Part shown: in pieces, positions 1,403 through 20,320 of the stretch
Layout of the letters: each line of letters opens with the position of its first letter
How positions within the stretch are numbered: position 1 is the stretch's first letter
Assembly (NCBI GenBank): GCA_026989015.1
Contig: JALSKD010000186.1
Coordinates: 1 to 39,132 of the forward strand
DNA: 39,132 bases
Source: Gammaproteobacteria bacterium
GTDB lineage: Bacteria > Pseudomonadota > Gammaproteobacteria > GCA-001735895
Direction of reading: 5' to 3'
Made by a program: the position numbers and the translations under genes
Notes under the pieces: generated by a model
Databases searched by the model: none
Told to the model about the DNA's origin: nothing
Seen by the model: only the letters and a program-made list of their open reading frames with translations

Positions 1403-1404
1403 GA

Positions 1405-4189: not shown

Positions 4190-4222
4190 AGGCCGTCTTT
4201 TGGATGCAGTCCTTTGCGTTGC

Positions 4223-4258
4223 ATAATATCCGTTTACTGGCTCACCAGACGAACCAGT
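4223..4258 (-). promoter_or_regulatory. Candidate cas3 promoter region with hairpin
   Basis: On the minus strand TATTAT (4223-4228) is a good -10 box that would start transcription near 4216, about 27 nt before cas3. No clear -35 lies 16-18 bp upstream. The expected -35 area is occupied by an 8-bp inverted repeat, ACTGGCTC (4236-4243) with GAACCAGT (4251-4258), with one G-U pair as RNA. That repeat could be a weak terminator for the upstream DUF3108 gene or a regulator site. Confidence 0.35.
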
Positions 4259-4270
4259 GAACCGGTTTTT

Positions 4271-4966
4271 TCAATCCATCCGCCACATCACGCTTTTTTC
4301 GGTTTTTCCCTTGTATTGCTCGATCTTGATCGGGGCGATATCGCCGCGGCGGTAGTAATAGACCATGTGTTTGTCGGAGCCTTCCAGGGTCTGGGTGACG
4401 CGGTCGAGGATGAGGGTGTCGTCGCCGGAGCGGAGCGGAACATCGCGCTCCAGCCGGAGGGTGGTGCGGCGGATCTTGCCTTTCTTGTAGAAGTCGGTTT
4501 CCAGTGTTCCGTCCGGGCTTTCGAGCAGTCTGGGGTAGAGCAGGTGGATGCTGAGGATGTCGTGCAGCGGCAGGCGGTAGTCGAGCTGGCGGGTGCCTTT
4601 CCTGTTGGCGTAGTAGAGGCGTTGCTTGCGGTCTTCGAACCAGGTGCTGCGGTCGGCGGGCTTGTCGTCGTAATCACCGCTGCGGGTAAGCATCAGGGCC
4701 GGTTCGCCATCGCGCAGGCGCAGCCAGGTTTCGCTGAAGGGTTTCTTTCGGGTGAGGAACCGCAGCCAGCCGACCGGTTCGGTGCGCATCTCCCAGATCC
4801 AGTAGTCGTACTGGGGGTAGAGGCGCATGGTGACCTTGCCGACGCGGGTTTCTCCGCGGTAGATCATGTAGTCGTGGCTGAAGGGTTCGAGCGGGGCAGC
4901 GAGGAGGTGGGCGGGCAGCAGTGCAAGCAGAAGCAGCAGCAGGTAGCGTTCAGTCCTTGGATTCAT
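4271..4966 (-). CDS. DUF3108 domain periplasmic protein
   Basis: A 231-residue protein of the DUF3108 family, whose biochemical role is not established. The N-terminus MNPRTERYLLLLLLALLPAH is a signal peptide, probably cut after LLAA, so the protein is likely periplasmic. The body is rich in short beta-strand segments with aromatic residues, as in FSHDYMIYRGETRVG and MVYYYRRGDIAPI. The start chosen at 4966 overlaps the end of purN by 17 nt; longer readings of the frame lack the signal peptide at their start. Genes of this family often follow purN in gammaproteobacteria, so it is probably the last gene of the purM-purN operon. Confidence 0.82.
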   Translation of the reverse strand: MNPRTERYLLLLLLALLPAHLLAAPLEPFSHDYMIYRGETRVGKVTMRLYPQYDYWIWEMRTEPVGWLRFLTRKKPFSETWLRLRDGEPALMLTRSGDYDDKPADRSTWFEDRKQRLYYANRKGTRQLDYRLPLHDILSIHLLYPRLLESPDGTLETDFYKKGKIRRTTLRLERDVPLRSGDDTLILDRVTQTLEGSDKHMVYYYRRGDIAPIKIEQYKGKTEKSVMWRMD

Positions 4967-5609
4967 CGTCGATCTGCCTCGGTCGGGTGAGCGGTTTGCC
5001 GTCGAACAGCGGTTGCTCGGCATCGGGTACCAGTCTGCCTTCGGCGATCCATTGAAGCAACCGGGGGTAGAGCCGGTGTTCCAGCCGGTGGGCTTTCTGT
5101 TGCAGGGACTCGGCATCGTCCTGAGGCTCGATCGGGAAACGGCCTTGCAGCAGCACCGGGCCGGCATCCAGTTCCGGGGTCACCACATGGATGCTGATGC
5201 CGTGTTCGCGGTCGCCGGCGTCCAGAGCGCGCTGATGGGTGTGCAATCCGGGGTATCGGGGCAGCAGCGAGGGGTGGATGTTGATCATGCGGCCGCGGAA
5301 GTGCTCAATCAGGTCGGGACTGAGGATGCGCATGTAGCCGGCCAGCACGATCAGGTCCGGCGCATGGCGGTCGATTTCCTGTTGCAGGCGGTGGTCGAAG
5401 CTCTCACGGTCGGGAAAGGCGCGGTGATCGAGCGCGATGGCTTCGATGCCATGGCGGCGGGCGCGTTCGAGACCGTAAGCGTCCGGGCGGTTGGAGATGA
5501 CCGTGCGTATGCGGCCGTTCAGGTCACCGGCCTCGATGCGGTCGATGATGGCTTGCAGGTTGCTGCCCTTGCCCGAGATGAGGACAACCAGGTCGAGCGG
5601 TGGCTTCAT
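4950..5609 (-). CDS. purN: Phosphoribosylglycinamide formyltransferase
   Basis: PurN transfers a formyl group from 10-formyl-tetrahydrofolate to GAR, the third step of purine synthesis. The 219-residue product has the typical length. It starts LDLVVLISGKGSNLQAI, where GKGSNLQ binds the phosphate of GAR, and contains LAGYMRIL and INIHPSLLP, which carries the family's catalytic Asn-His pair. The start at 5609 lies 4 nt after the purM stop, so the two are surely co-transcribed. The last 17 nt overlap the DUF3108 gene. Confidence 0.96.
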   Translation of the reverse strand: MKPPLDLVVLISGKGSNLQAIIDRIEAGDLNGRIRTVISNRPDAYGLERARRHGIEAIALDHRAFPDRESFDHRLQQEIDRHAPDLIVLAGYMRILSPDLIEHFRGRMINIHPSLLPRYPGLHTHQRALDAGDREHGISIHVVTPELDAGPVLLQGRFPIEPQDDAESLQQKAHRLEHRLYPRLLQWIAEGRLVPDAEQPLFDGKPLTRPRQIDDESKD

Positions 5610-5613
5610 CCGT

Positions 5614-6657
5614 TCAGTCGAAGACCACGGCGTCGCCGTAGCGGGCAACGATGTCGCCGATAATCCAGGCGGTCTCACCGGCATCGCGCAGTGCCCACAG
5701 GGTGGTGTCGGCCAGATCGGCGTCCACCGCCAGTACCATGCCGACGCCACAGTTGAAGGTGCGGCGCATCTCGCTGTCGCTGATGCCGCCGGCCTGTTGC
5801 AGCCACTGGAAGACCGGTGGAAGCGCCCAGCTGGAGCTGTCGATGCGCGCGGCGCAGTGTTCGGGCAGGACGCGGGGGATGTTTTCGGTCAATCCGCCGC
5901 CGGTGATGTGGGCGATGGCGTGGGGGGTGTTGGCCCGATCCAGTTCCAGCAGGGTCTTGCAGTAGATTCGGGTCGGTTCCAGCAGGGCATCACCGAGCGG
6001 GCGGCCACCGCAATCCTGGGCAAGATCGGCGCCGCTGATCTCGATGATCTTGCGGATCAGCGAATAGCCGTTGGAGTGGGGGCCGGATGAGCCGAGCGCC
6101 AGCAGCGCATCGCCGGGGCGGACCTCGCTGCCGTCGATGATCGCGTCCTTGTCCACGATGCCGACGCAGAAACCGGCGAGGTCGAAATCGTCTTGTGCGT
6201 ACATGCCGGGCATTTCGGCGGTCTCGCCGCCGATCAGCGCACAGCCGGCCTGTACGCAGCCCTCGGCGATGCCGGTGATGACCTGCTCGGCGACTTCCAG
6301 CTCCAGTCGGCCGGTGGCGTAGTAGTCGAGGAAGAACAGGGGTTCGGCGCCCAGCACGGCAATGTCGTTGGCGCACATGGCGACCAGATCGATGCCGATG
6401 CCGTCATAGCGCTGGAGGTCGATGGCCAGCCGCAGCTTGGTGCCGACGCCGTCGGTGCCGGAGACCAGATAGGGGTTCGGGTAGCGGTCCAGCGGCAGAT
6501 CGAACAATCCGCCAAAACCGCCGATGCCACCGACCACGCCGCTGCGCCGGGTGCGCCGGATGGCCGGCTTGATGCGTTCCACCAAGGCGTTTCCGGCATC
6601 GATGTCGACACCGGCGTCACGGTAACTCAGTGAGGGCTTGGGATCGGCGGAATTCAT
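5614..6657 (-). CDS. purM: Phosphoribosylformylglycinamidine cyclo-ligase (AIR synthetase)
   Basis: PurM closes the imidazole ring in an ATP-dependent step to give AIR, the fifth step of purine synthesis. The 347-residue length is typical. Hallmarks include the opening [46 protein letters not shown] and [16 protein letters not shown]. It is the first gene of a minus-strand operon with purN. It is divergent from the DUF2066-hda pair across a 75-bp gap. Confidence 0.97.
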
Positions 6658-6690
6658 GGCCGCGGGTTCTCCGATGTTGGGGGCTGTGCT

Positions 6691-6696
6691 ATTTTA
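6691..6696 (-). promoter_or_regulatory. Candidate -10 box for purM
   Basis: In the 75-bp gap between purM and the divergent DUF2066 gene, the minus strand reads TAAAAT at 6691-6696, five of six consensus bases. The hexamer 17 bp upstream (CGGGCA) agrees with the -35 consensus at only three positions. I see no convincing promoter for the plus-strand gene here. Confidence 0.35.
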
Positions 6697-6732
6697 CACG
6701 CCCTGAAAATTATTGCCCGGTTTCACCCGCCC

Positions 6733-7845
6733 ATGCGCCGATCCGATTCCCGCCGAGCCCGCCTGCTGCTGCCGGCCCTGTCGCTGCTGCTGATGCTGTT
6801 GCCCGCGGCGGCCTGGGCGGTGCGTGTCAACAACCTCTATACGGTCGAGCTGCCGGCCGCGGATCAGAGTACGGCCGAACGGCTCAAGCTGTTTGGCGAG
6901 GCGATGAAGCGGGTGCTGGTCAAGATCACCGGCGATGAACGGGTGCTTGAACACCCCGGTCTGCAGGGGGCGATCAAGCGCGCCGCGCGTTTTGTCGCCG
7001 AATACCGTTATCGCGCCAATGAAGCGGCCACAGGCACTGACGGCGCCAAGGCGTCACCCAGGTTGTGGCTCAAGGTGCGTTTCGACGCGACAGCGCTGGA
7101 ACGCCTGTTGCGTGACCAGCAGCTCAAATTGTGGGGTGCCGAGCGCCCAAGCAGCCTGCTGTTGCTGGCCGTGCAGCAGGGCGGACGGCTGAAGCTGGTC
7201 GCTGATGACACCACTCCGGGACTGGCTGCGCAGATCAGCCGCCTGGCCGATGCGCGCGGTCTGCCCGTGTTGCTGCCGCTCAATGATCTGGAAGACAGCC
7301 GTGTGCTGGGTCCCAGGCAGATCCGTGACCGCGATGAACGGGCCATTGCCGCGGTCAGCGCCCGTTACGCGCCCGACGCGGTGCTGGTGGGCACCCTGTC
7401 CGGAAACGGTGGCAAGGGCTGGCGCGGCAACTGGCAGTTGCGTTTCTCCGGCCGTTCCTTCGACTGGAGCTTCGAAGCGCCGACCCGTCAGGCCGTGCTC
7501 GATCAGGCCCTCTCCCGGCTGGGGAGGACCCTGGCCAGCGAATATGCGCTGGATACTTCGATGGCCGGTGGGCAGGATCTGTTGCTGATGGTCGACGGCG
7601 TCACCACCCTCGACGCACTGTTGCGGGTGACCCGTTACCTCAAGTCGCTGGACGCCATCGAATCGGTGCGCCCGCAGCGGGTCGAGCCGGAGCGCGTCAG
7701 TTTCCGGCTGCGCCTGCGCAACGCCGCACAGGATCTGTCGCGGTTGATCGCGCTTGGCGATGTGCTGGAACAGCAGGAGCTGCCACAGGTGCAGGCGGGC
7801 GCGGTCAACGCGCTGGTGCGCCTGCACTACCGCCTGCTGCGCTGA
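6733..7845 (+). CDS. DUF2066 domain protein
   Basis: A 370-residue member of the DUF2066 family, of unknown function, common in gammaproteobacteria beside purM and hda. After an arginine-rich start comes a hydrophobic stretch, LLLPALSLLLMLLPAAAWA, that looks like a signal peptide ending at AWA, so the protein is probably secreted to the periplasm. The mature part begins VRVNNLYTVELPAADQS, typical of the family. A 30-nt gap separates it from hda, so they are probably co-transcribed. Confidence 0.85.
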   Translation: MRRSDSRRARLLLPALSLLLMLLPAAAWAVRVNNLYTVELPAADQSTAERLKLFGEAMKRVLVKITGDERVLEHPGLQGAIKRAARFVAEYRYRANEAATGTDGAKASPRLWLKVRFDATALERLLRDQQLKLWGAERPSSLLLLAVQQGGRLKLVADDTTPGLAAQISRLADARGLPVLLPLNDLEDSRVLGPRQIRDRDERAIAAVSARYAPDAVLVGTLSGNGGKGWRGNWQLRFSGRSFDWSFEAPTRQAVLDQALSRLGRTLASEYALDTSMAGGQDLLLMVDGVTTLDALLRVTRYLKSLDAIESVRPQRVEPERVSFRLRLRNAAQDLSRLIALGDVLEQQELPQVQAGAVNALVRLHYRLLR

Positions 7846-7875
7846 CACGCGTTCGACTGTTCGAGATACGGCCGC

Positions 7876-8589
7876 ATGGCGCAACTTCCCCTGCCGCTGG
7901 AGTTCGACTCCCGCTTCAGCCTCGACAACTACATTGCCGACCCGGCGCCCTACATCCGCCATCAGCTGACCGCCCTGTTCGACGAAACCGGAGAGTCACT
8001 GATCGGACTGTGGGGCGGCACCGACAGTGGCAAGACCCATCTACTCAATGCCTGCGCGCTCTATGCCCGGGATGCCGATATCCGTTACCACCTGTTCGAT
8101 GCCGCGCAACTGATCGAAGCCAGTGCTGATGGGTTCAGCGAGTTTGCCGCGGGTTCGGTGCTGGCCGTGGACAACATCGACCTGCTGGCCGGCAACCGGG
8201 ACTGGGAAGCTGCCTGCTATCAGGTGGTCAACCGGGTCAAGAACGGTGAGTTGCGGTTTCTGTTCAGCCTGTCGCGACAGCCCCGCGATACCGGCTTCCG
8301 TCTGCCGGACCTCAAATCCCGTCTCGGTTGGGGATTGCTGATCGCGTTGCCTCAGCCGGACGACGCGGCGGTGGAGCGCATCCTGCGTGAACGCGCGCGT
8401 CTGCTGGGGCTGGAGCTGGGCGACGAGGCGCTGCATTTTCTTCTCAGCCGCTATTCGCGGCGCCTGAAGGATCAGATGGATGCGCTACAGCTGTTGGATG
8501 CGGCAGCCCTGTCGATGCAGCGGCGCATCACCGTGCCGCTGATCCGCGAAGTACTGCCGTTTCAGCTGGAGCCGGACAGCGCCAGATAG
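7876..8589 (+). CDS. hda: DnaA regulatory inactivator Hda
   Basis: Hda binds the replication sliding clamp and stimulates hydrolysis of DnaA-bound ATP, preventing re-initiation. The 237-residue product has the expected clamp-binding motif QLPLPL at residues 3-8, then a single AAA+ module: Walker A GGTDSGKTH near residue 46 and Walker B VLAVDNIDLL near residue 95. It lacks the DnaA DNA-binding domain, which separates it from DnaA. The last 28 nt overlap the convergent DUF2069 gene. Confidence 0.94.
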   Translation: MAQLPLPLEFDSRFSLDNYIADPAPYIRHQLTALFDETGESLIGLWGGTDSGKTHLLNACALYARDADIRYHLFDAAQLIEASADGFSEFAAGSVLAVDNIDLLAGNRDWEAACYQVVNRVKNGELRFLFSLSRQPRDTGFRLPDLKSRLGWGLLIALPQPDDAAVERILRERARLLGLELGDEALHFLLSRYSRRLKDQMDALQLLDAAALSMQRRITVPLIREVLPFQLEPDSAR

Positions 8590-8903
8590 CGACTGTGATA
8601 GACCGCAGCCAGAAACAGACCGGTGCTGAATAGCAGGTTCAGGATACCGTACAGCCGCAGGCTGCCGCCGGCAAAGGCTTCGCTGACCCCGATGGCGAAA
8701 TAGAACAATACCGGGAAACCGACCCACTTGAAGGTATAGCGCCGGTTGCGCCACAGGCCGGGCAGCGGGAACAGCAGTGGCAGGGACAGCAAAAGTGGAA
8801 TCCACCACGCGCCGTCGAGCCACAGCAGAAGACCCAGCTGGGTCAGGATGAGACCGGACAGGCACAGCAATGCCAGGACCTGCAGCGGACGAAAGCGGGT
8901 CAT
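8562..8903 (-). CDS. DUF2069 integral membrane protein
   Basis: A 113-residue protein with about four hydrophobic segments (for example VLALLCLSGLILTQL and WWIPLLLSLPLLFPLPGL), matching the small DUF2069 inner-membrane family of unknown function. The start at 8903 overlaps the wrbA-like gene by 4 nt (ATGA), so translation is probably coupled. Its 3' end overlaps hda tail to tail by 28 nt. In gammaproteobacteria this family is regularly found next to a WrbA-type gene. Confidence 0.85.
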   Translation of the reverse strand: MTRFRPLQVLALLCLSGLILTQLGLLLWLDGAWWIPLLLSLPLLFPLPGLWRNRRYTFKWVGFPVLFYFAIGVSEAFAGGSLRLYGILNLLFSTGLFLAAVYHSRYLALSGSS

Positions 8904-9505
8904 GACGAGGACTTCAGTCGCAGGGCCAGCTTCGCCACCCGGCGCCCCAGCGCCCTGGCGCAGCGGACCTCGTCTTCGGACAGGGGGGCGCCCTGGGGGT
9001 GATCGTGGTGGCTGGCGCCATAGGGCGTGCAGCCGCTGCGGGTGTTCACCACGGCGGGCTCCGAGTAGGGCAGGCCGGCGATCAGCATGCCGTGGTGCAG
9101 CAGCGGCTTGATCATGCCCAGCAGCACCGATTCGTGCCCGCCGTGCAGGCTGGAGGCCGAGGTGAACACCGCGGCCGGTTTGTCGATCAGTGCGCCGGAG
9201 AGCCACAATGGCGAGGTCTGCTCGAGGAAATGCTTCAGCGGTGACGCCATGCTGCCAAAATAGGCTGGCGAGCCCAGAATCAGGCCGTCGCAGGCCGAGA
9301 GTTCATCCGGCTCTGCATAGGGCGGGCCGCTTATGGGCAGAGGGTCGTCGCTCTGTTCGGTGCGTGGAGAGACCTCGGGCACCCGGCGCAGCAGTGCCAG
9401 AGCGCCGCTGACCGACTCCACCCCTTCGGCGATTCGTTCCGCCAGCGCCGCCACCGATCCGTGACGGCTGTAGTAGAGCAACAGTATCCGGGCTTCGTCA
9501 GCCAA
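8900..9505 (-). CDS. WrbA-type NAD(P)H:quinone oxidoreductase (flavodoxin fold)
   Basis: WrbA proteins are FMN enzymes that reduce quinones by two electrons and limit redox cycling. The 201-residue product has the FMN phosphate loop near the start (LLLYYSRHGSVAALAERI), the family motif GSPAYFGSMASPLKHFLEQT near residue 79, and GGHESVLLGM. It lies 5 nt before the ArsC-like gene's stop position on the same strand and overlaps the DUF2069 gene by 4 nt, forming a three-gene minus-strand operon. Confidence 0.9.
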   Translation of the reverse strand: MADEARILLLYYSRHGSVAALAERIAEGVESVSGALALLRRVPEVSPRTEQSDDPLPISGPPYAEPDELSACDGLILGSPAYFGSMASPLKHFLEQTSPLWLSGALIDKPAAVFTSASSLHGGHESVLLGMIKPLLHHGMLIAGLPYSEPAVVNTRSGCTPYGASHHDHPQGAPLSEDEVRCARALGRRVAKLALRLKSSS

Positions 9506-9510
9506 GGGGA

Positions 9511-9870
9511 TCAGAGGATCTCCAGCACCGATTCGGGCGGGCGGCCGATGGCGGCGCGCTCATCGTCCACCACCACGATCGGCCGCTGCAGGATGGTCGG
9601 GCACTGGGCCAGGGCGTCGAGAATGTCTTCGTCGCTGAGGTCGTTTTCGTCCAGCCCCGCATCCTTGTAGACCTGCTCGTTGGTACGCAGCAACTCGCGT
9701 GGCGAAACGCCGAGCAGCTCGACCAGATGCGCCAGCGTCTGCTGGTCGGGCGGGTCTTTCATGTATTCGACGATTTCGGGTTCGATGCCCTGCTCCTGCA
9801 GCAGTTCCAGTGTCGCGCGGGACTTGCTGCAACGGGGGTTGTGATAGATAACGACGGAAGAACGGCTCAT
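9511..9870 (-). CDS. arsC: ArsC-family (glutaredoxin-type) reductase
   Basis: ArsC-type enzymes reduce arsenate with glutathione and glutaredoxin; Spx/YfgD-type members share the fold with other roles. The 119-residue product begins MSRSSVVIYHNPRCSKSRAT, with the nucleophilic cysteine at residue 14 in the family's NPRCSKSR loop, and ends near CPTILQRPIVV, the arginine region that binds oxyanion in this family. The start at 9870 was chosen because the 19 residues upstream have no family resemblance. No other arsenic gene is nearby, so the true substrate is open. Confidence 0.88.
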   Translation of the reverse strand: MSRSSVVIYHNPRCSKSRATLELLQEQGIEPEIVEYMKDPPDQQTLAHLVELLGVSPRELLRTNEQVYKDAGLDENDLSDEDILDALAQCPTILQRPIVVVDDERAAIGRPPESVLEIL

Positions 9871-9998
9871 CGTGTGACCTCGGATAGACAGCGTGTTGGC
9901 GATGTCGGGCGCTCCGCGAACGGGCAAACCCTTGTTGGCGATATGCGGATCAATTCTGGAGCAAGGGCCGGATCAAGGCAATGCTTTTGTCGGGCGGG

Positions 9999-10027
9999 TT
10001 GACACTGCCCCCGGCATTCGGTACTTT
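9999..10027 (+). promoter_or_regulatory. Candidate promoter in the 345-bp gap before the LysM lipoprotein gene
   Basis: TTGACA (9999-10004) is a perfect -35 box, followed after 17 bp by TACTTT (10022-10027), a weak -10. It would leave a leader of about 180 nt. The gap also holds an AT-rich stretch at 10035-10060 and a small CCCC-GCA-GGGG stem. I recognise no riboswitch in it. Confidence 0.4.
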
Positions 10028-10215
10028 CGGCGGAATAACAATGATAAACAAATTTGATGGCCATTCTTGACCGGGCATTGTGGAGCCGAGTACGGGCTTG
10101 CCCGAAAACCCCGCAGGGGGTAAGGTTCGCCACACTGGATTCATGAACAACCCAGTCCAGCGCTCAAGCTTGACCTGAACTGACAAACCAAAACCGTTCC
10201 CGGAGAACGCTACCC

Positions 10216-10869
10216 ATGAAAAAAACCGAGTTACTGAAGTTCGCCGCCATTGCCCTTCTCTCCACCGGCCTGATTGCAGGCTGCGCCAGCGAGACCCAGC
10301 CTGCGCCGGCTACCGAAACCGAACAGGCAGGACCCAGCGCCGCCGCCAAGAACGCCATCTACTCCGCCAAGCTGAAGCTGGCACGCGCCCAGAAGCTGGG
10401 TTACGAGTGGCGTGACACCGCCAAGATCATCAAGGAAGCCGAGAAGGCCGCCGCTGCGGGCGACAACGACAAGGCCATCGCTCTGGCCAACAAGGCTGCC
10501 AAGCAGTCCGATGACGCGATTGCCCAGTACCACTCCGAGACCAAGCGCTTCAACGAACGCTTCGGCACAGTGAGCGGAACCGGTTCGATGATGACTTCCG
10601 CCGGCGAATACACGGTGGTGCGTGGCGACAACCTGTGGGATATCTCCGGCAAGGATTCCATCTACGGCAACCCCTATCAGTGGCCGCTGATCTACAAGGC
10701 CAATGCCGACCAGATCAAGGATGCCGACCTGATCTACCCCGGCCAGGTCTTCGAGATCCCCAACGCTTCCGCCAGCGAGATCGATGCCGCCATCCAGCAT
10801 GCCAAGACCCGCGGCGCCTGGTCCATCGGCGTGGTCGAGGAATCCGACAAGCAATACCTGGCCCAGTAA
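10216..10869 (+). CDS. LysM-domain lipoprotein
   Basis: A 217-residue predicted lipoprotein. The signal peptide ends in the lipobox LIAGC at about residues 19-23, giving a lipidated cysteine. The Ala/Lys-rich middle (about 45-105) is predicted helical. A LysM domain starts at about residue 133 (YTVVRGDNLWDISGK) and runs to LIYPGQVFEIP; LysM binds peptidoglycan sugars. The gene probably tethers the outer membrane to the wall or helps place a wall enzyme; no catalytic domain is visible. A strong Shine-Dalgarno GGAGA lies before the ATG and a clear terminator follows. Confidence 0.88.
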   Translation: MKKTELLKFAAIALLSTGLIAGCASETQPAPATETEQAGPSAAAKNAIYSAKLKLARAQKLGYEWRDTAKIIKEAEKAAAAGDNDKAIALANKAAKQSDDAIAQYHSETKRFNERFGTVSGTGSMMTSAGEYTVVRGDNLWDISGKDSIYGNPYQWPLIYKANADQIKDADLIYPGQVFEIPNASASEIDAAIQHAKTRGAWSIGVVEESDKQYLAQ

Positions 10870-10905
10870 TACCGGGCTGAATTCCGGCTCCGGGGCCGGA
10901 ACGGG

Positions 10906-10932
10906 AAAGGGCTCGCTTCGGCGGGCCTTTTT
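10906..10932 (+). terminator. Rho-independent terminator after the LysM lipoprotein gene
   Basis: GCTCGC and GCGGGC pair around a TTCG tetraloop (10911-10926), with flanking G-C and A-T pairs, and run into five T residues. A second perfect hairpin without a T run, TTCCGGC/GCCGGAA at 10882-10901, precedes it. Confidence 0.85.
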
Positions 10933-11011
10933 CTTGCCCGTTCTCTGCCGTGGAAACCATTTGCGCCGGAGCGAATCCAAAGCAGCGAACTCCCTTATTC
11001 CGGTATCCGCC

Positions 11012-11497
11012 ATGAAACCTGCTCTTGCCCTGATTCTGTTCCTGTTTTCCACTCAGCTGTTCGCCGAACCGGTAGACATGACGCTGACCGATCTCGACGG
11101 CAAGCAGGTGCGCCTGTCGGACTACCGCGGCAAATGGGTGATCGTCAACTACTGGGCCACCTGGTGCCCGCCCTGTCGCGAGGAGATGCCGGAGCTGGAA
11201 TCCTTCCATGCCGCCTACGAGAAGGACAAGGCCGTCGTGCTGGGCCTGAATACCGAGGTCATCGACAAGCAGCGCATTCTCGATTTTCTCGACGAATACT
11301 TCATCTCCTACCCCAACTTCATCGTGGGGCCGGTTGCGGAATCGCCGCTGGGCCGCATTCCGGGGTTGCCGACCACCTTCGTCATCACACCCCAGGGGGA
11401 ACTGGTCGCTCGCCAGGTGGGCGGCGTCACGCGTGAAATGATTGAAAATTTCATCGAGAAGTGGGAAGCTAAAAATCCGGCGGAAGGCGGCAGCTGA
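11012..11497 (+). CDS. TlpA/ResA-like periplasmic thiol-disulfide oxidoreductase
   Basis: A 161-residue exported thioredoxin-fold protein. The signal peptide covers about residues 1-18 (ending QLFA). The active site WCPPC gives C52 and C55, typical of TlpA/ResA-type reductants. The IPGLPTTFVI segment holds the cis-proline of the fold. Relatives reduce cysteines in apo-cytochrome c, copper sites or other periplasmic proteins; the actual partner is not visible here. The start at 11012 was chosen because the signal peptide begins there. It stands 69 bp before another thioredoxin-fold gene on the same strand. Confidence 0.9.
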   Translation: MKPALALILFLFSTQLFAEPVDMTLTDLDGKQVRLSDYRGKWVIVNYWATWCPPCREEMPELESFHAAYEKDKAVVLGLNTEVIDKQRILDFLDEYFISYPNFIVGPVAESPLGRIPGLPTTFVITPQGELVARQVGGVTREMIENFIEKWEAKNPAEGGS

Positions 11498-11566
11498 TCC
11501 GCCCCGACCAAGGCGCCCGCAGAGGCGTCCACGAAGCGCAGCTTCGACCACCGACAGAGGAACGAG

Positions 11567-12148
11567 ATGAACGCTTACGGTCACTTTCTTGCCCGGCTTT
11601 TGCTGTTGACCGGACTGCTTGCCGGTCTGTCATCGGTGGTGCTTGCAGCCGAGCCGCGCGACCCCTACCAGTACTTCTTCGAACAGAGCCTTGGCGACAT
11701 GGCGGAAGAGCTTGAAGTCGCCCGCGAGGAAGGCAAGCAAGGCCTGTTCGTGTTCTTCGAGCTGGATGAATGCCCTTTCTGCCACCGCATGAAACGCACC
11801 GTGCTCAACCAGCCCGAGGTGCAGGAGTTCTTCCGCAAGCACTTTCACAGCCTCGCTGTCGATATCGAGGGCGACATCGAGGTAACCGACTTCAAAGGCA
11901 CTGAAACCACCCTCAAGGGCTTCGCCAGTCAATACCGGGTGCGTGCCACACCGGTGCTCGCCTTCTTCGATCTCGACGGCAACCTGCTGGTGCGCTATAC
12001 CGGTGCTACTTCGGGAGTCGAGGAGTTCATGTGGCTGGCGGACTACTACCTGCAGGGCGTCTACAAACTCAAGGACAAGAACGGCAGGCCCATCCGCTTC
12101 AGCCGTTACAAGCGCATGCGTAAGAAAGAGAAAGCCAGCCGTTCATGA
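11567..12148 (+). CDS. Exported thioredoxin-fold protein with CPFC motif
   Basis: A 193-residue protein with a signal peptide ending near LAA (residue 28) and a redox motif ECPFC, C69 and C72. FVFFELDECPFCHRMK and YRVRATPVLAFFDLDG (cis-Pro) mark the thioredoxin fold; it resembles SoxW-like and thioredoxin_2-type proteins. A good Shine-Dalgarno (GAGGAACGAG) precedes the ATG. Its end overlaps the TolC-like start by 4 nt (ATGA). A basic tail, KRMRKKEKASRS, is unusual for the fold. It may keep a periplasmic cysteine of the neighbouring transport proteins reduced, but that is inference from position only. Confidence 0.85.
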   Translation: MNAYGHFLARLLLLTGLLAGLSSVVLAAEPRDPYQYFFEQSLGDMAEELEVAREEGKQGLFVFFELDECPFCHRMKRTVLNQPEVQEFFRKHFHSLAVDIEGDIEVTDFKGTETTLKGFASQYRVRATPVLAFFDLDGNLLVRYTGATSGVEEFMWLADYYLQGVYKLKDKNGRPIRFSRYKRMRKKEKASRS

Positions 12149-13455
12149 TGCGCGCGCTGCTGTTCTGCCTGCTGTTCGCCGTCCCCCCGATTCAGGCTGC
12201 CGAAACCCTGCCCGAGCCGCTGACCCTGGAAGCCGCACTGGAGCGGGCGGCCTATCCCGACCATTTTGCCGTGCAGCTGGCCGAGGCGGAGCGCGAGAAA
12301 CGCGAAGCCGAAGCCGATGCGGTGGCCGCCGAGCGCGGCGTCACCCTCGATCTCGAAGGCCGCTGGCGCAAGGTGGGGTTGTCTGACAACAGCCCGCTGA
12401 CCGATGACGACGACAGCCTGGCTGGCCTGTATTTGCGCAAACCCCTCTACGATTTTGGACGCAGCGCCGCCGCCGATGCGCTGGCCGCCCACAAACTGCG
12501 CCTTGCCGAACTGCAAAAACGCTGGCGCCTGCAGCAGCGCGAACTGGAGATCGTCGAGCTGTATTACCAGGTACTCGATGCCGACAATGAATACCTGCGG
12601 CACAACGAGGAATTGGCCATCGGTTTCATCCGCTATGACCGCATGCGCGAGAACCGCGAGTTGGGCTTGGCTTCCGACATCGATGTGGAAGAAAAGCTGG
12701 CGGCCTACGAGACCATACGCCAGAACCGTTACCGCAGCGAGAACCGACAGCGCCTGACGCGGCAGATGCTCGCCGAGGCGCTGGGTGTTCCGGATTCACC
12801 GCCCGATGAGTTGGTGGTGCCCGACATCGATACCGAGCGCCCGGTGCCGGAGGTGGATCGCCTGCTTGAAAAGGCGCTGAGCAACAGCCTGCGGGTGGCC
12901 ATCGGCCAGCAGAAGGTCGAGATCGCCCGTCAGGCGATCCGTGCCGCGGAAAAGGCGGACGCACCGAGCCTCGATGCGGAGCTGGAAGTGGCCAAGCATT
13001 TCCGTGACAATTCACCGAGGGACGACTGGCGGGCCTCCATCTACTTCGATGTGCCCCTCTACCGCGGACGCTCCGGCGATGCGCGCCTGCGTCAGGCACG
13101 GGCCGAGCACCGCCGCGCACTGGCCGAGCTGCAGCGGACGCGCAGCCAGCTGCGCCTCGATGTCCTCAAACTGTGGCAGGACTTGCGCCAGAGCCGGTTG
13201 CGTTTGCAGGGTGCCCTGGCGGCGCAGGAGTACCGCGACCTCTATCTGGACCGCAGCCGTGCCGATTATGAACTGGAATTCAAGAGTGACCTCGGAGACG
13301 CGATGGTGCAGTTCTCCGACGCCCGCTGGAAGGTCTGGCGCGCCCGCTTCGATTTCGATCTCGCCTGGCGCAAGCTCGAGCAGCTCGTGGGCCAGCCGCT
13401 GGAAACCCTGGCCGGCGATGCCGGCACCCAACCGCCCGGAGATGCGAATGGCTAG
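12145..13455 (+). CDS. TolC-family outer membrane channel protein
   Basis: A 436-residue outer-membrane-efflux family protein with signal peptide (cut after IQAA) and long charged coiled-coil helices, as expected for the two repeated coiled-coil domains of the TolC tunnel. LYLRKPLYDFGRS and FDVPLYRGRSGDA are the paired strand-turn motifs seen in each half. It opens a block of three overlapping genes: 8 nt shared with the HlyD-like gene and 4 nt with the thioredoxin-fold gene before it. No inner-membrane pump follows, which is unusual. Confidence 0.88.
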   Translation: MMRALLFCLLFAVPPIQAAETLPEPLTLEAALERAAYPDHFAVQLAEAEREKREAEADAVAAERGVTLDLEGRWRKVGLSDNSPLTDDDDSLAGLYLRKPLYDFGRSAAADALAAHKLRLAELQKRWRLQQRELEIVELYYQVLDADNEYLRHNEELAIGFIRYDRMRENRELGLASDIDVEEKLAAYETIRQNRYRSENRQRLTRQMLAEALGVPDSPPDELVVPDIDTERPVPEVDRLLEKALSNSLRVAIGQQKVEIARQAIRAAEKADAPSLDAELEVAKHFRDNSPRDDWRASIYFDVPLYRGRSGDARLRQARAEHRRALAELQRTRSQLRLDVLKLWQDLRQSRLRLQGALAAQEYRDLYLDRSRADYELEFKSDLGDAMVQFSDARWKVWRARFDFDLAWRKLEQLVGQPLETLAGDAGTQPPGDANG

Positions 13456-14212
13456 CTTTCGGTACACATGCCTGATCCTGTTGCTGATCACTGCGCCGCT
13501 GCAGGCACTGACGCTCAATGGCTTCACCCGTTTTGGCGACTCGGTGGCCGTCAATGCCGGCACCGATGGCGTCATCCAGCGCGTTGCGGTCAGGCCCGGG
13601 CAACGGGTTGCGCGCGGAGATCTGCTGCTGCAGCTGGACGACCGCCCGCACAAGGCCCGGCTGGCACAGGCCAGGGCCCGCGCCGAACGCCTCAAGCCGC
13701 CGTTGCAGACCGCGGAACTCGAATTCGAACGCGCCCAGGAACTCTACGACCGGGATTCCCTGTCGACGGTGGCGTTGCAGAAGGCCGAGAGCCGCCTGGC
13801 CGAGGCACGCGGCGCTTACGAGGCGGCGCTGGCCGAGCAGCAACTGGCCGAATACCTCCTGCAGCTGACGCGCATTCGCGCACCGATGGAGGGGCGTGTT
13901 TTGTCGATCGAAGCCCGGGTTGGGCAATATGTGAACCCCGAAGTCGAGCTGACTCCTCTGCTAGTGCTGGTGCGCACGCGCAGCATGCAGGCGGTGGGTT
14001 CACTCGGTTCCGAACAATGGGATCATGACCTGGTCGGCCGCAGCGCGTCGGTGACCTATCGCGGACAGCGCTATACGGGACGGGTCGAGGAAGTCGGTCT
14101 GAAGCGGGTCAGCACCGGCGCAGGGCTCAGCGGTTATCCGCTGCGGGTCCGTTTCGAGACCGAACAACTGATCCCGGCCGACATGCCGGTCAGCATCGAG
14201 ATCGGGGAATGA
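13448..14212 (+). CDS. HlyD/RND-type periplasmic adaptor subunit
   Basis: A 254-residue membrane-fusion-type adaptor. The signal peptide (LILLLITAPLQA) is followed by a split lipoyl domain (VAVNAGTDGVIQRVAVRPGQ and RIRAPMEGRVLSIEARVGQ) flanking a helical hairpin, then a short beta-barrel. The start at 13448 is preferred over 13442 because GGAG at 13438-13441 is well spaced from it. It overlaps the TolC-like gene by 8 nt and the ATPase gene by 4 nt. It is shorter than most adaptors, with little of the membrane-proximal domain. Confidence 0.85.
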   Translation: MASFRYTCLILLLITAPLQALTLNGFTRFGDSVAVNAGTDGVIQRVAVRPGQRVARGDLLLQLDDRPHKARLAQARARAERLKPPLQTAELEFERAQELYDRDSLSTVALQKAESRLAEARGAYEAALAEQQLAEYLLQLTRIRAPMEGRVLSIEARVGQYVNPEVELTPLLVLVRTRSMQAVGSLGSEQWDHDLVGRSASVTYRGQRYTGRVEEVGLKRVSTGAGLSGYPLRVRFETEQLIPADMPVSIEIGE

Positions 14213-15969
14213 TTCGAAACTGCAGCCTGGAGGGCATCCTCGACGCGCTGGTCGATGACGGGCTGGTCGAGGAGGAGCGGGCACGGATGGTGTCTTCGCT
14301 GATTTCGCGCAAGGACCGTGACGGCCTGCATCCCTTGGAAATCGTCGCCAGCCGCAACTGGCGTCACGCCGCCGACCCCAATACCCTGTTGACGCTCGAT
14401 CTGCTCACCGACTGGCTGGCCGACAAATCGGGCCTCGAACGCTTCCACTTCGACCCGCTTAAAATGGATGTGGCGGCCTGTACCGGGCTGATGTCCTATG
14501 CCTATGCCTCGCGCTTCAGCATTCTTCCGGTCGAGGTGCAGCCGGGCCAGGTGACGATCGCGGTCAGCGACCCCTGCAACATGGAATGGCAGGACGAGAT
14601 TGCGCGCATCGTACAACAGCCAATCCGCTGCGTGCTCGCCAATCCGCAGCAGCTGAAAAGCTATCTGCTCGAGTTCTACAGCATCAGCAAGGCCATGGAC
14701 AAGGCCGGTGGCGCGCAGGGTGAGCAGGTCGGCAACATTCAGAACCTGGAGCAGCTCATCGAACTGGGACGGACCGGTTCGGTGGAAGCCGATGATCAGC
14801 ACATCGTCAGCATCGTTGACTGGCTGCTGCAGTATGCCTTCACCGAGCGCGCCAGCGACATTCACATCGAGCCGCGCCGTGAACAGGGCAAGGTGCGTTT
14901 CCGTATCGACGGGGTAATGCACCAGGTGTATGAAATTCCCGCCAACATCACCGCGGCGGTGATCAGCCGCATCAAGATTATGGGGCGGTTGGATGTGGCC
15001 GAAAAGCGCAAGCCCCAGGACGGACGCATCAAGACCCGCTCGCCGGATGGCAAGGAGATCGAGATGCGCCTGTCGAGCATGCCCACCGCCTTTGGCGAGA
15101 AACTGGTATTGCGCATCTTCGATCCGGAGGTGCTGGTGCGCGATTTCTCCGATCTCGGGTTCGAGAAAAGGGAATCCGAAATCTGGGAAGGCATGATCCG
15201 CCAACCCCATGGCATCATCCTGGTGACCGGTCCCACCGGATCGGGCAAGACCACCACCCTGTACACCAGCCTCAAGCAGCTGGCCACGCCACAGGTCAAT
15301 GTCTGCACCATCGAAGACCCGATCGAGCTGGTCGAGCCGAGTTTCAATCAGATGCAGGTGCACCCGAAGATCGGCCTCGATTTCGCCAGCGGTGTGCGCA
15401 CATTGTTGCGCCAGGACCCGGACATCATCATGATCGGCGAGATCCGCGATCGGGAAACCGCCGAGATGGCCGTGCAAGCGGCGCTGACCGGTCATCTGGT
15501 GCTGTCCACGCTGCACACCAACGATGCGCCCTCGGCGGTGGCCCGGCTCAGTGAGATCGGGGTGCCCCCCTACCTGATCAGCGCCACCCTGCTGGGCGTC
15601 GTGGCCCAGCGTCTGGTGCGCACCCTGTGCCCGCACTGCAAGCAGCCGAAGGCGCTGGATGCACTGGAATGGGAAGCGATGATCCGCCCCTGGAACGCGC
15701 CGCCGCCGAAACAGGTGTACGAGGCCGAAGGCTGTCTGGAATGCCGCAACACCGGCTACCTGGGCCGCAAGGGTATCTACGAGATGATGCCCCTGTCGGA
15801 CACATTGAAGAAGCGCATCCGCGCCGACTTCGATCTGCTGGAGTTCCGCCGTCAGGCCCTGAAGGAAGGCATGCGCCCGCTTAATCTCGCCGGCGCGCAA
15901 AAGGTGGCGCGGGGCCTGACCACGGTGCAGGAGGTGCTGAAGGTCGCGCCGCCACGCTACGACGGTTGA
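14209..15969 (+). CDS. PilB/GspE-family secretion ATPase
   Basis: A 586-residue hexameric-type ATPase that powers type IV pilus assembly or type II secretion in its relatives. The N-terminal 150 residues form a GspE/MshE-N-like domain. The core has Walker A GPTGSGKTTTLYTS near residue 341, an Asp-box region TIEDPIE, Walker B LLRQDPDIIMIGEIRD and the His box STLHTNDAPSA. CPHC (about 474) and CLEC (about 509) form the tetracysteine zinc site. All motifs are intact. It overlaps the adaptor gene by 4 nt. No platform protein, pilin or secretin is nearby, so its partner is unknown. Confidence 0.92.
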   Translation: MIRNCSLEGILDALVDDGLVEEERARMVSSLISRKDRDGLHPLEIVASRNWRHAADPNTLLTLDLLTDWLADKSGLERFHFDPLKMDVAACTGLMSYAYASRFSILPVEVQPGQVTIAVSDPCNMEWQDEIARIVQQPIRCVLANPQQLKSYLLEFYSISKAMDKAGGAQGEQVGNIQNLEQLIELGRTGSVEADDQHIVSIVDWLLQYAFTERASDIHIEPRREQGKVRFRIDGVMHQVYEIPANITAAVISRIKIMGRLDVAEKRKPQDGRIKTRSPDGKEIEMRLSSMPTAFGEKLVLRIFDPEVLVRDFSDLGFEKRESEIWEGMIRQPHGIILVTGPTGSGKTTTLYTSLKQLATPQVNVCTIEDPIELVEPSFNQMQVHPKIGLDFASGVRTLLRQDPDIIMIGEIRDRETAEMAVQAALTGHLVLSTLHTNDAPSAVARLSEIGVPPYLISATLLGVVAQRLVRTLCPHCKQPKALDALEWEAMIRPWNAPPPKQVYEAEGCLECRNTGYLGRKGIYEMMPLSDTLKKRIRADFDLLEFRRQALKEGMRPLNLAGAQKVARGLTTVQEVLKVAPPRYDG

Positions 15970-15972: not shown

Positions 15973-16608
15973 CTATTGCTTGAACCAGTGCCGCTGCAGG
16001 GCACGCACGACCTTTGCGGCGTAGCCGTTGTAATGGCGGTAGCTGCCGTTGTAGCGGGCCAGCGCCGGTCCCAGATCCCCCTTTTCCATGTCCAGGTAGT
16101 AGCGCAGGATGGTGGTGCCCATGCGCAGGTTGGTGCGGATCCTGAACAGGTTCTTGTCGGAGAGCTGGATCTCGTCGAGCCAGAAGGGCATCACCTGCAT
16201 CAGCCCGCGCGCACCGGATACCGAGATCGCGAAGCGGTCGAAGGCGCTTTCCACCTCGATCACCGCCAGCACCAGTTCCGGCTCCAGCCCGGCCCTTCGG
16301 GCTTCGTAGTGGACGGTCTTGAGGATTTCGATGCGCTCGCGCGGGTCCTTCACCCAGCGTTCCAGCCGCCGGCTCATGTCGTGCAGCCAGACCTCCGCGT
16401 CATAGCGGTCCTCGAAGCCGTCGGTTTCGCGCACCGCCTCCTGCAGCAGACGCTTGAGCTCCGGGTCCACCGCCGGCGGCTCGGTGGCCACTGCCGGTTG
16501 ACCGATCAGCAGCAGACCGAGCAGGGCGGCGCCCAGCGCCCGCTCAGTCCAGCTTTTCGCGAACGAACGCCTTGAGCCGCTCGAGCGCGACATTCTCGGA
16601 AGCCTCAT
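15973..16608 (-). CDS. Lytic transglycosylase (SLT domain)
   Basis: A 211-residue exported murein hydrolase. After a basic N-terminus a hydrophobic signal stretch ([17 protein letters not shown]) follows. The SLT fold begins about residue 100: [16 protein letters not shown] holds the catalytic glutamate, then [12 protein letters not shown] and ARYNGS complete the typical lysozyme-like motifs. The start at 16608, with GGGA 8 nt upstream, makes it overlap the end of proS by 65 nt; 16593 is a possible alternative. There is no closer ATG. It converges with the ATPase gene, leaving 3 bp between them. Confidence 0.87.
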
Positions 16609-18265
16609 CGCTGCGTCCCTTGTATTCGAAGTTTCCGGCCTGAAGGCCGCGATCGCTGAACACCACCCGGTGTGGCACGCCGATCAGTTCCATGTCGGCA
16701 AACATGGCGCCGGGGCGCAGCGGGCGGTCGTCGAGCAGGGCATCGATGCCCTGTTCCAGGCACCAGGCATGGAAGGCATCGGCCTCGTTCCGGACGGCCT
16801 CGGACTTGTGGTAGTTGATCGGGCAGATGGCCAGCGTGAACGGTGCCAGCGCCATCGGCCAGATGATGCCCCTGTCGTCGTGGTTCTGCTCGATGGCCGC
16901 GGCCACCACGCGCGATACGCCAATGCCGTAGCAGCCCATGGTGACGGTTCGGGCCTTGCCGTTTTCGTCCAGCACCTCGGCCTTCATCGCCCGCGAATAC
17001 TTGTCGCCGAGCTGGAAGATGTGGCCCACCTCGATGCCGCGCAGGATACCGAGGCGTCCCTTGCCGTCGGGGCTGGGGTCGCCCTCGACCACATTGCGGA
17101 TGTCGGCGACCTCCGGTTCAGGCAGATCCCGGCCCCAGTTGACGCCGGTGAGGTGTTTGCCGTTTTCGTTGGCCCCGCAGACGAAGTCGGCGAGCGCGGC
17201 GGCGCAGCGGTCGGCAATGACCGGAAGGTTCAACCCCACAGGGCCGATGGAGCCGATGTCGCAGCCGATCACGCTGCGGATGTGTTCGGCGTCGGCCATC
17301 TGCAGCGGCGCGGCCACCTGGGGCAGTTTCTCCGCCTTGACGGCGTTGAGTTCGTGGTCGCCGCGCAGGCACAGGGCGACCAGTTCGGGGCCGTTGCCGT
17401 CCTCACCGGGATCGCCGCGGACGATCAGGGTTTTCAGCGTCTGTTCGGCGGGCAGGCCGAGCAGGGCGCAGACTTCCTCGATGGTGTGGGCGTTCGGGGT
17501 GTCCACAGTGTGCATGTCCTGCGTGGGTTCACCGCGCTTTTGTTCGCAGATGGCTTCGGCCATTTCGACGTTGGCGGCATAGTCGCTGCCGTCGGAGAAG
17601 GCAATGGCGTCCTCGCCGGAATCGGCCAACACATGGAATTCATGGGAAGTATTGCCGCCGATGGCGCCGGAATCGGCGGCCACCGGGCGGTAGTCCAGTC
17701 CGAAGCGGTCGAAGATTCGGCTGTAGGCCGTGAACATGTCGTCGTAGGTGCGTTGCAGCGATTCCGCATCGAGGTGAAAGGAATAGGCATCCTTCATGAC
17801 GAATTCACGGGCGCGCATCACACCGAAACGCGGGCGGATCTCGTCGCGGAACTTGGTCTGGATCTGGTAGAAGTTGAGCGGCAGCTGCTTGTAGCTCTTG
17901 ACCTCGCGGCGGAACAGGTCGGTGATGACCTCCTCGTGGGTCGGGCCGATGCAGAATTCACGACCATGGCGGTCCTTCAGGCGCAGCAGTTCGGGACCGT
18001 ACTGCTCCCAGCGGCCGGATTCCTGCCACAGTTCGGCCGGCTGGACGGCCGGCATCAGCAGTTCCAGCGCGCCGGCGCGGTTCATTTCCTCGCGTACGAT
18101 GGCCTCGACCTTGCGCAGTACGCGCAGGCCCAGCGGCAGCCAGGTATAGAGTCCGGAAGCCAGGCGGCGGATCATGCCGGCGCGCAGCATCAGCTGATGG
18201 CTGACGATCTCGGCGTCGGCCGGGGTTTCCTTCATCGTCGACAGATGAAAGCGGCTGGTTTTCAT
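16544..18265 (-). CDS. proS: Prolyl-tRNA synthetase, bacterial type with editing domain
   Basis: ProS charges tRNA-Pro. The 573-residue product starts [19 protein letters not shown], nearly the family consensus, and includes class II motif 2 around [17 protein letters not shown] and motif 3 at [10 protein letters not shown]. The long insertion between motifs 2 and 3 (about 220-380) is the YbaK-like domain that clears mischarged alanine. Length is standard. The 3' end overlaps the lytic transglycosylase gene by 65 nt. Confidence 0.97.
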
Positions 18266-19282: not shown

Positions 19283-20320
19283 ATGAAGATTGCAAACCCG
19301 CTGTACACCTTCGTTCTCGCGTTGCTGTTCAGCCTGCCGGGGCAGGCCGCAATCAACGGCGTGGAAACCGGTGCCGCCCAGCTCAAGGAAGTGCCGACCA
19401 CCTACCTGCTCGAGGGCGTCGTCGAGGCCACCCAGAAGAGCACGATTTCGGCGCAGACCTCCGGCGTGATCAAGGAAGTCCATTTCGATGTCAACGATTT
19501 CGTGCGCAAGGGGCAGCTGGTGGTGCTGATCGACGATACCCAGCAGCGCGCGGACTTGCGGCAGGCGGAGGCGGCGCTCAACGAGGCGCACGCGCGGCAG
19601 CAGGAGGCCAAGCTGGAATACGAGCGGGTGCTTAAGGTGTATCAGCGCAAGGTGGTGCCCAAGTCGTCTCTGGACAAGGCCAGCGCGGCGCTGAAATCGG
19701 CCCAGGCACGGGTACAGTCGGCCCGTGCGGCGGTGGCCAAGGCCAGGGAGCAGCTGGCCTACACCCGGGTGCGCGCGCCCTACAGCGGCATCCTCGTCGA
19801 GCGTCATGTGGAACCGGGCGAGGCGGTCAGCATCGGGTCGCCGCTGGTGGCCGGCATTTCGCTGGAGAAGCTGCGCGTGGTCACCCATGTGCCGCAGAGC
19901 TTGATCCGCGAGGTGCGTGACCAGAAACGGGCGATCGTGGTCACCGAGGACAGCGAGATCGTGTCCGACAAGATGACCTTCTTCCCCTTTGCCGATGTGC
20001 GCAGCCACAGCTTCGTGCTGCGTGTCGAACTGCCGGAAGGTGATCATGACCTGCTGCCGGGCATGTTCGTCAAGGTGGCGATGGAAGTGGGCCGCCAGAA
20101 CAAGGTGGTGATTCCGTTCAGTGCCGTTGCCTTCCGTGGCGAGGTTACCGGCGTCTATGTGCTGGAGGACCAGAAGCTGCATTTCCGTCATGTCCGTCTC
20201 GGACGGCGCCTGCCGGACAACGAGGTGGTGGTGGTCTCCGGATTGCGCGCCGGCGAGCTGGTGGTGACCGATCCGGTAGCCGCCGCGATCATCATCAAGC
20301 AGGAACAGGCAGAGGAGTGA
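19283..20320 (+). CDS. RND efflux periplasmic adaptor subunit
   Basis: A 345-residue adaptor that bridges an inner-membrane RND pump to an outer-membrane channel. It has a signal peptide (ending GQAA), the split lipoyl domain (STISAQTSGVIKEVHFDVND and RVRAPYSGILVERHVEPGE) around a long alpha-hairpin (about 95-165), then beta-barrel and membrane-proximal domains. Seven nucleotides separate it from the pump gene. The dyad over its promoter suggests repression that is lifted by an inducer. The outer-membrane partner is not adjacent. Confidence 0.93.
   Translation: MKIANPLYTFVLALLFSLPGQAAINGVETGAAQLKEVPTTYLLEGVVEATQKSTISAQTSGVIKEVHFDVNDFVRKGQLVVLIDDTQQRADLRQAEAALNEAHARQQEAKLEYERVLKVYQRKVVPKSSLDKASAALKSAQARVQSARAAVAKAREQLAYTRVRAPYSGILVERHVEPGEAVSIGSPLVAGISLEKLRVVTHVPQSLIREVRDQKRAIVVTEDSEIVSDKMTFFPFADVRSHSFVLRVELPEGDHDLLPGMFVKVAMEVGRQNKVVIPFSAVAFRGEVTGVYVLEDQKLHFRHVRLGRRLPDNEVVVVSGLRAGELVVTDPVAAAIIIKQEQAEE

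Follow-up and report, generated by a model that had tools for sequence, protein, structure and literature searches.

In the stretch of DNA analyzed here, 39,132 nt from a Gammaproteobacteria bacterium (positions 1–39,132 of contig JALSKD010000186.1, assembly GCA_026989015.1; hereafter the window), genes for two thioredoxin-like proteins, a TolC-type outer membrane channel, a short periplasmic adaptor and a secretion-type ATPase follow one another on the plus strand, and we find that they probably make up two modules: a TfpB-type pilus motor and a tlpA-trx-tolC-hlyD cassette linked to sulfur-oxidizing bacteria. The TlpA/ResA-like thioredoxin (11012–11497; WCPPC motif, Pfam AhpC-TSA/Redoxin) ends 69 nt 5′ of the gene counted as the cassette's first, which encodes the thioredoxin-fold protein Trx (11567–12148; CPFC motif, Pfam Thioredoxin_2). 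This is followed by the channel (12145–13455; Pfam OEP in two stretches, with TolC as its PDB sequence matches), the adaptor (13448–14212; Pfam HlyD_3/HlyD_D23) and the ATPase (14209–15969; Pfam T2SSE and MshEN). An earlier note on this DNA had described overlaps of 4, 8 and 4 nt from Trx through to the ATPase, and the coordinates 11567–15969 bear this out: Trx and TolC share the 4 nt ATGA, TolC and the adaptor share 8 nt (14 nt with an alternative in-frame ATG at 13442), and the adaptor and ATPase again share the 4 nt ATGA. All three overlaps are also present in the genus's single other genome (G040, locus L039).

The identity of the ATPase decides how the locus should be read. With 899.6 bits it passes the curated cut-off of 850 for the NCBIfam TfpB model NF053534, the sole matching NCBIfam model over its cut-off, while its scores with the PilB model TIGR02538 (532.3 bits, cut-off 675.65), the GspE model TIGR02533 (532.9 bits, cut-off 630.25) and the ComGA model all stay below theirs. 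The five further PilB/GspE-type ATPases of the same genome reach 309–462 bits with the TfpB model, and the canonical PilB, on contig C179, scores 864 bits on TIGR02538 and 451 on the TfpB model. Beside this PilB lies a PilC-like protein that falls short of the cut-offs of its best models, C53 carries GspE and GspF, and C181 carries a PilT-type ATPase. The earlier note was correct that the window holds no GspF/PilC platform, the genome's eight matches to PF00482 being confined to C179, C53, C49 and C96. More PilB/GspE-type ATPases occur on C96, C49 and C182, in addition to the canonical pilus and type II secretion sets, and those on C96 and C49 adjoin platform genes.

In a class sample of 369 genomes, searches assigned TfpB to 92 genomes, Trx to 97, PilB to 253, soxB to 150 and dsrA to 117 (lists transferred manually, their sizes agreeing with the search totals). 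At the TfpB threshold of 1e-200, 69 of the 92 pass the curated cut-off. TfpB and canonical PilB co-occur in 76 of the 92 TfpB genomes (63.1 expected, p = 7e-4). No PilC/GspF homologue was found near tfpB in 20 other genomes of the class, from seven open reading frames (ORFs) before the gene to six after it, contig permitting; 14 of these 20 loci lack the cassette, and the remaining six had been chosen because they adjoin one. Passages of PMC8213720 describe TfpB of Acinetobacter baylyi as a second type IV pilus extension motor without pilB gene synteny, and passages of PMC11656802 likewise treat it as a second extension motor. The window ATPase is a TfpB-family orphan and, on the simplest reading, a cytoplasmic motor that, by analogy with the A. 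baylyi protein, would help extend type IV pili by acting on a pilus machine encoded elsewhere.

Motor and cassette come apart within the family. Our family sample comprises 41 genomes, 24 of them with a closely related adaptor orthologue (E ≤ 4e-35) and 40 with a TfpB orthologue (at least 73% identity, some fragmented), and tfpB surroundings were inspected at 31 loci, nine of the 40 tfpB genomes being left out. The trx-tolC-hlyD genes lie directly 5′ of tfpB in 13 family genomes (two of the window genus, all eight of g3 and three of g2) and away from tfpB in 11 of the 24 with the adaptor. At 18 of the 31 inspected loci the cassette is missing and tfpB directly follows tlpA (15 loci) or lysM (three), some of these loci belonging to the 11 genomes with a relocated cassette. 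Otherwise, the tfpB neighborhood is largely constant in the family, running from purM, hda, wrbA, arsC and lysM to slt and proS. The earlier note had looked to relatives in which the ATPase sits with its own pilus genes and the TolC/adaptor pair with a pump. The second half of this holds, with TolC and adaptor located elsewhere and an RND adaptor or permease on the cassette's contig in seven of the 11 relocated-cassette genomes; the first half does not, as the ATPase in these relatives is not beside pilus genes, which is consistent since TfpB is an orphan in other genomes too.

Where the two modules do adjoin in the family, they are tightly coupled. Measured between the end of the adaptor gene and the start of tfpB, spacing stays near zero, ranging from −4 to 10 nt across the 13 family loci and from 0 to 10 nt across the 11 outside the window genus. 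The overlap that the earlier note had singled out for a neighborhood search recurs in G040. Outside the family, the distance is 189–389 nt in seven of eight adjacent loci, the adaptor being recognized in seven (L161 and L293 are one contig, so nine spacing rows represent eight loci). Tight coupling of adaptor and ATPase is therefore a family trait and not chance, and since spacing is near zero inside the family and 189–389 nt outside it, we regard it as a family-level tightening of an older neighborhood. In a FastTree phylogeny of joined Trx and TolC (83 rows, with both L161 and L293 standing in it), tfpB adjacency falls in several separate clades, and one clade within the family holds cassettes located elsewhere.

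In the window, the cassette and tfpB are flanked upstream by a gene for a LysM-domain protein (10216–10869, plus strand; Pfam LysM), a position shared with family loci, and downstream by a convergent SLT lytic transglycosylase gene kept in most family loci (15973–16608, minus strand; Pfam SLT) and the conserved proS, for prolyl-tRNA synthetase (16544–18265, minus strand; Pfam). The g2 loci L056, L129, L131, L133, L134 and others carry two extra genes between tfpB and slt, one for an unknown protein of ∼155 aa and a second of ∼216 aa (with a VTT domain in L056). In L133 (G001, ∼7772–9537) tfpB appears as two overlapping frames and is possibly broken or affected by a sequencing frameshift.

Across the class, the cassette is a recurring unit in its own right. 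A Trx profile search with a cut-off of 1e-25, which also admits weaker homologues, marked 97 of the 369 genomes, with tolC directly downstream in 86 of them; the other 11, where tolC was not seen downstream (two end at a contig edge), were excluded from the cassette tests. Of the tolC-bearing trx genomes, 50 offer 2.8 kb or more of sequence downstream, and the adaptor gene is present in 49 of them; the 30 best trx loci carry only ∼1.5 kb of flank, so that hlyD is mostly outside view there. A scan of named genomes gave 80 loci, of which 21 share sequence with the fetched family loci and 59 share none and were taken as outside the family. In these 59, tolC follows trx in 52 as scored by script and in 53 once L161, read by eye, is counted; tlpA lies 5′ of trx in 37, and tfpB follows hlyD in three, which is also three of the 38 loci where both channel and adaptor are present and no less than 4.5 kb follows downstream (L161 added by eye). 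The tie between the redox proteins and the TolC/adaptor pair that the earlier note had suspected is thus strongly supported, with tolC after Trx in 86 of 97 genomes and TlpA before Trx in 37 of 59 loci. We conclude that tlpA-trx-tolC-hlyD is a conserved envelope cassette, usually without a pump beside it.

Among these named loci, L199, L200 and L205, from symbionts of which two are titled Candidatus Thiodiazotropha, have ∼1.9 kb between tolC and hlyD, an insert that holds an opposite-strand ORF of ∼360 aa. In L174, L184, L188, L193, L202 and L208 (Thiocapsa, Thiohalocapsa and Lamprobacter) Trx occurs without tolC and hlyD, and four lone-Trx loci of Thiocapsa have wrbA and hda-like genes alongside.

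Cassette and TfpB distribute independently in the class: 26 of the 86 cassette genomes also have TfpB, where 21.4 are expected (p = 0.20, n = 369), and by coordinates the two adjoin in nine of these 26. This bears directly on the main interpretation of the earlier note, an unusual export device in which the ATPase would power export through the TolC/adaptor tunnel while the redox proteins tend its disulfides. Its appeal lies in the tight spacing in 13 family genomes and in an adjacency that recurs outside the family. We nevertheless reject such a hybrid and consider it highly improbable, since the ATPase belongs to the TfpB family, the 18 cassette-free loci of the 31 in the family lack TolC genes, and the two modules have independent distributions in the class. 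In addition, the 20 other tfpB loci of the class likewise lack a nearby PilC/GspF, contig permitting, most of them without a cassette, and with the adaptor periplasmic and the ATPase cytoplasmic we saw no conserved membrane protein that would join them. The note's second suggestion, of two half-systems kept together, comes close to the truth, in that two independent modules probably meet here; the motor is coupled to the operon in the family but is probably a neighbor and not part of a TolC device. With the false hybrid of pilus motor and export tunnel removed, interest shifts from the ATPase to the cassette, and what replaces the hybrid is a sharply defined, testable unit of TolC, adaptor and thioredoxins, mostly without a linked pump, that is almost confined to genomes with sulfur-oxidation genes.

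Trx residues D67, E68, C69, P70, F71, C72 and H73 are invariant in 24 aligned family rows, and both Trx and the TlpA-like protein are predicted to be periplasmic from an N-terminal signal-like stretch read by eye; in many relatives tlpA immediately precedes either the cassette or tfpB. In one family locus (L050, 3545–4051; G003), the alignment indicates a Trx gene seemingly frameshifted in its C-terminal part. An AlphaFold2 model of the adaptor (pLDDT 89.8) has a lipoyl domain, an alpha-hairpin with two helices of 36–37 residues and a beta-barrel, and stops after the barrel without a membrane-proximal domain. Foldseek on this model ranked MacA best, then EmrA, a MexC-like protein, AcrA and MexA, and the best PDB sequence match was a Pseudomonas aeruginosa TriA-TriB fusion chain (6vej_P). 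At its tip, the hairpin has R95, L99 and S106, in alignment columns dominated by R or K, by L, and by S or A, respectively, a spacing that we take to be that of the RLS motif for TolC docking. To judge from the model, the adaptor appears to be a functional partner of TolC that lacks a membrane anchor of its own.

The cassette is almost restricted to genomes with genes for sulfur oxidation. Most of the hosts named to genus bear names of sulfur oxidizers (Sedimenticola, Thiodiazotropha and Thiolapillus, plus tubeworm symbionts), and Sedimenticola hydrogenitrophicus is a named host strain; for that reason soxB and dsrA were tested in the same 369 genomes. soxB is present in 82 of the 86 cassette genomes (35.0 expected, p = 9e-35, odds ratio 65), and soxB or dsrA in 84 of the 86 (37.8 expected), a count that leaves kinship out of account. 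The cassette genomes with neither gene are G230 and G375, which are 97% and 75% complete, respectively. Hits over the curated cut-off make up 148 of 150 for soxB and 112 of 117 for dsrA, and the genome of the window carries both genes. All 44 cassette-bearing families include a genome with soxB or dsrA, with family labels assigned by hand and totals of 160 and 182 families tried. TfpB served as a control and showed no such association (44 of 92 with soxB, 37.4 expected, p = 0.11). We therefore propose that the cassette serves sulfur oxidation, and it probably acts in the envelope of sulfur oxidizers.

The association could instead reflect shared ancestry and habitat, with an ordinary TolC/adaptor set carried along in sulfur-oxidizing lineages. 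The counts were made without phylogenetic weighting, and PilB too is weakly associated with soxB, both of which speak for this explanation. However, the association takes in 84 of the 86 genomes and every one of the 44 families, TfpB is free of it in the same sample, and two thioredoxin-like proteins would be unusual partners for a plain efflux set. We consider common descent and habitat a rather unlikely account of the pattern as a whole.

Both a channel and a periplasmic adaptor, as found in a tripartite system, are present in the cassette, and the earlier note had stated that no pump accompanies them. That statement was the weak part of an otherwise largely correct observation (the overlaps and the missing platform both stand): 3.3 kb downstream of tfpB, on the same strand and inside the window although beyond the 11012–15969 that the note covered, lie genes for an RND-type periplasmic adaptor (19283–20320; TIGR01730, 212.4 bits, cut-off 94.9) and an RND efflux permease (20328–23612). 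RND permease models match the permease over the full length, though below their cut-offs, and it has PDB sequence matches to MexK, MdtB and TriC. No outer-membrane channel gene lies directly beside it. The cassette might therefore lend its channel and a second adaptor to this possible partner pump, in an arrangement like TriABC-OpmH with the thioredoxins as accessories; passages of PMC8277102 describe triABC as having two adaptor genes and working with OpmH. Pump and cassette are linked in the window, an RND gene shares the cassette's contig in the seven of 11 relocated cases noted above, and both adaptors match the TriA-TriB fusion chain best among PDB sequences. The permease is also found in 19 of the 24 cassette genomes of the family compared with eight of the 17 others (p = 0.048; cut at ∼60% identity, fragments included).

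Other evidence tells against such a partnership. Linkage may be positional, since G167, a genome with tfpB and with its cassette on a different contig, keeps the RND pair in the same slot behind duf4124. Five of the 24 cassette genomes lack the permease at the cut, one of which (G005) has a contig-end RND adaptor beside the cassette, and by fold MacA ranks above the RND adaptors. The RND linkage that would underlie a TriABC-type arrangement occurs in part of the family and was not found in the 59 loci outside it, where an AcrB-type RND permease had no match; an MMPL-type permease in L179 lies on the other strand. On balance we regard this two-adaptor RND system as unlikely, about as much so as the account by descent and habitat. 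In L106 (G016, 1303–15021), genes for a DsbH/DUF255 protein (598 aa) and a MotA/TolQ/ExbB-type protein lie between the relocated cassette and the RND pair, and a universal stress protein gene lies 3′ of hlyD.

A search for other pumps covered ∼5 kb around 53 cassettes outside the family, with the whole range on the contig in 25 and incomplete in 28. As far as the contigs reach, no ABC ATPase lies within this distance in any of the 53, and no polytopic ORF of at least 300 aa is in range for 43. MFS pumps were judged by hydrophobicity alone. Polytopic ORFs near the other 10 cassettes were scanned at nine loci, the tenth (L159) having an ORF that matches that of L158 in length and position. As pump candidates we rejected the AI-2E family proteins in L157, L192, L206 and L212, MurJ and PntB in L158, BrkB in L190 and an acyltransferase in L211. 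For the most part, then, the polytopic genes are of housekeeping or AI-2E type, with the DsbD of L163 and the MMPL-type permease of L179 standing out. A dedicated ABC pump 5′ of the cassette was likewise rejected, the ORFs before tlpA in L182 encoding a TPR protein, an APH-type kinase, a nucleotidyltransferase and a response regulator (449, 350, 242 and 239 aa, respectively); the APH-type kinase is also found in L204 and the response regulator in L165. Single genes 3′ of hlyD (HipA-like in L198, DUF123 in L182 and unknown in L189) were set aside as well. Within this scope, then, we found no dedicated, conserved and linked inner-membrane transporter, the RND pair being near the cassette in part of the family only. 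In the metagenome-assembled genome locus L163 (9827–15288), a gene for DsbD (785 aa) lies directly 3′ of trx-tolC-hlyD on the same strand. DsbD is the usual electron supplier of periplasmic thioredoxins, and its position here would fit electron supply to those of the cassette.

A number of results weigh against a sulfur-linked cassette that is separate from the motor. Trx occurs without tolC, despite sufficient room downstream, in nine of the 97 class genomes, and also in six of the 59 named loci, all six presumably Chromatiaceae. The genomes are related, so Fisher p-values overstate the association, and PilB with soxB gives an odds ratio of 2.4 (p = 2e-4), which is background kinship. The dsrA count pools oxidative and reductive types. 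Sulfur oxidation does not require the cassette, which is present in only 82 of the 150 soxB genomes, and the cassette is not near soxB: of 18 hand-picked pairs on one contig, 17 are at least 28 kb apart, and in the remaining one (G206) soxB is 7 kb away but the locus lacks tolC. The permease of L179 belongs to the RND superfamily and lies ∼7 kb from trx at the range edge, and the pump search covered the full range for only the 25 cassettes given above. TfpB stands beside the cassette in no fewer than three clades of the cassette's tree and in four families, near-zero spacing suggests co-transcription in the 13 genomes of the family that show it, and there is room for some functional tie between the two.

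How the cassette would work can be sketched as follows. TolC and the short adaptor would form the outer-membrane half of a duct from the periplasm to the outside that either takes its cargo from the periplasm or works with an RND or other pump whose genes lie elsewhere, while the TlpA-like and CPFC thioredoxins would act on a thiol or sulfane-sulfur cargo in the periplasm or keep the cargo reduced. The simplest proposal is that the cassette carries sulfur species, thiol-bound or zero-valent, through the outer membrane or detoxifies them; the duct might export waste or excess sulfur or, conversely, help extracellular sulfur in. We offer this specific duct as a tentative and somewhat doubtful mechanism, with cargo, direction and energy source all conjectural. 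A bolder and more speculative version, which we rate below each of the two alternatives of a borrowed pump and of shared descent, makes the cassette a pump-free outer-membrane sulfur gate for persulfide, polysulfide or activated zero-valent sulfur, with the thioredoxins loading or unloading it for Sox/Dsr. If true, such a gate would fill the missing step between extracellular sulfur and its periplasmic oxidation; to our knowledge, how elemental or polymeric sulfur passes the outer membrane, inward or outward, has yet to be settled.

A scan for promoters and terminators gave no signal above chance. Near the window edge, at 1517–4189 on the minus strand, lies a gene for a Cas3 helicase-nuclease of a type I CRISPR system, with TIGR01587 and TIGR01596 both over their cut-offs.

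In the portions of the open-access literature consulted, we recognized no published description of a trx-tolC-hlyD unit. As a possible match we rejected the thiocyanate-dehydrogenase cluster of Thiohalobacter, which in passages of PMC6504805 has CusA and two CusB-like genes and no clear TolC. TolC-type genes do appear in work on sulfur bacteria: in excerpts of the respective papers, Sulfurovum TolC/HlyD genes are induced by sulfur and read by the authors as biofilm secretion (PMC10045233), Acidithiobacillus TolC proteins are read as small-molecule and metal transport (PMC12053936), and TolC of the Riftia symbiont is most abundant in small cells, with no sulfur link drawn in the excerpt (PMC7787665).

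Among known systems, the motor resembles TfpB of A. baylyi in passing the NCBIfam equivalog model, in being an orphan without pilC synteny and in having a canonical pilB elsewhere; it differs in that its gene, known here from sequence, overlaps an adaptor gene behind a TolC/thioredoxin cassette. The cassette shares with tripartite efflux and type I secretion systems, among them pumps whose borrowed TolC is encoded at another locus, the TolC channel and the lipoyl, hairpin and barrel domains of the adaptor. Unlike them, it has no conserved linked inner-membrane pump across the 53 cassettes outside the family (28 ranges incomplete), its adaptor lacks the membrane-proximal domain, and its unit includes two thioredoxin-like genes. 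With TriABC-OpmH of P. aeruginosa it would have in common two adaptors per RND permease, if the RND pair of the window is its partner, whereas its adaptor and channel are encoded apart from the pump and, outside the family, are present without it. SoxW is a periplasmic thioredoxin of sulfur oxidation. Passages of PMC11582611 consider a DsbA-like protein beside SoxT1A in Hyphomicrobium denitrificans for the release of sulfane sulfur. These proteins and those of the cassette are all thioredoxin-fold envelope proteins of sulfur oxidizers; in contrast to them, the cassette Trx is joined to a TolC channel and an adaptor and does not lie near soxB.

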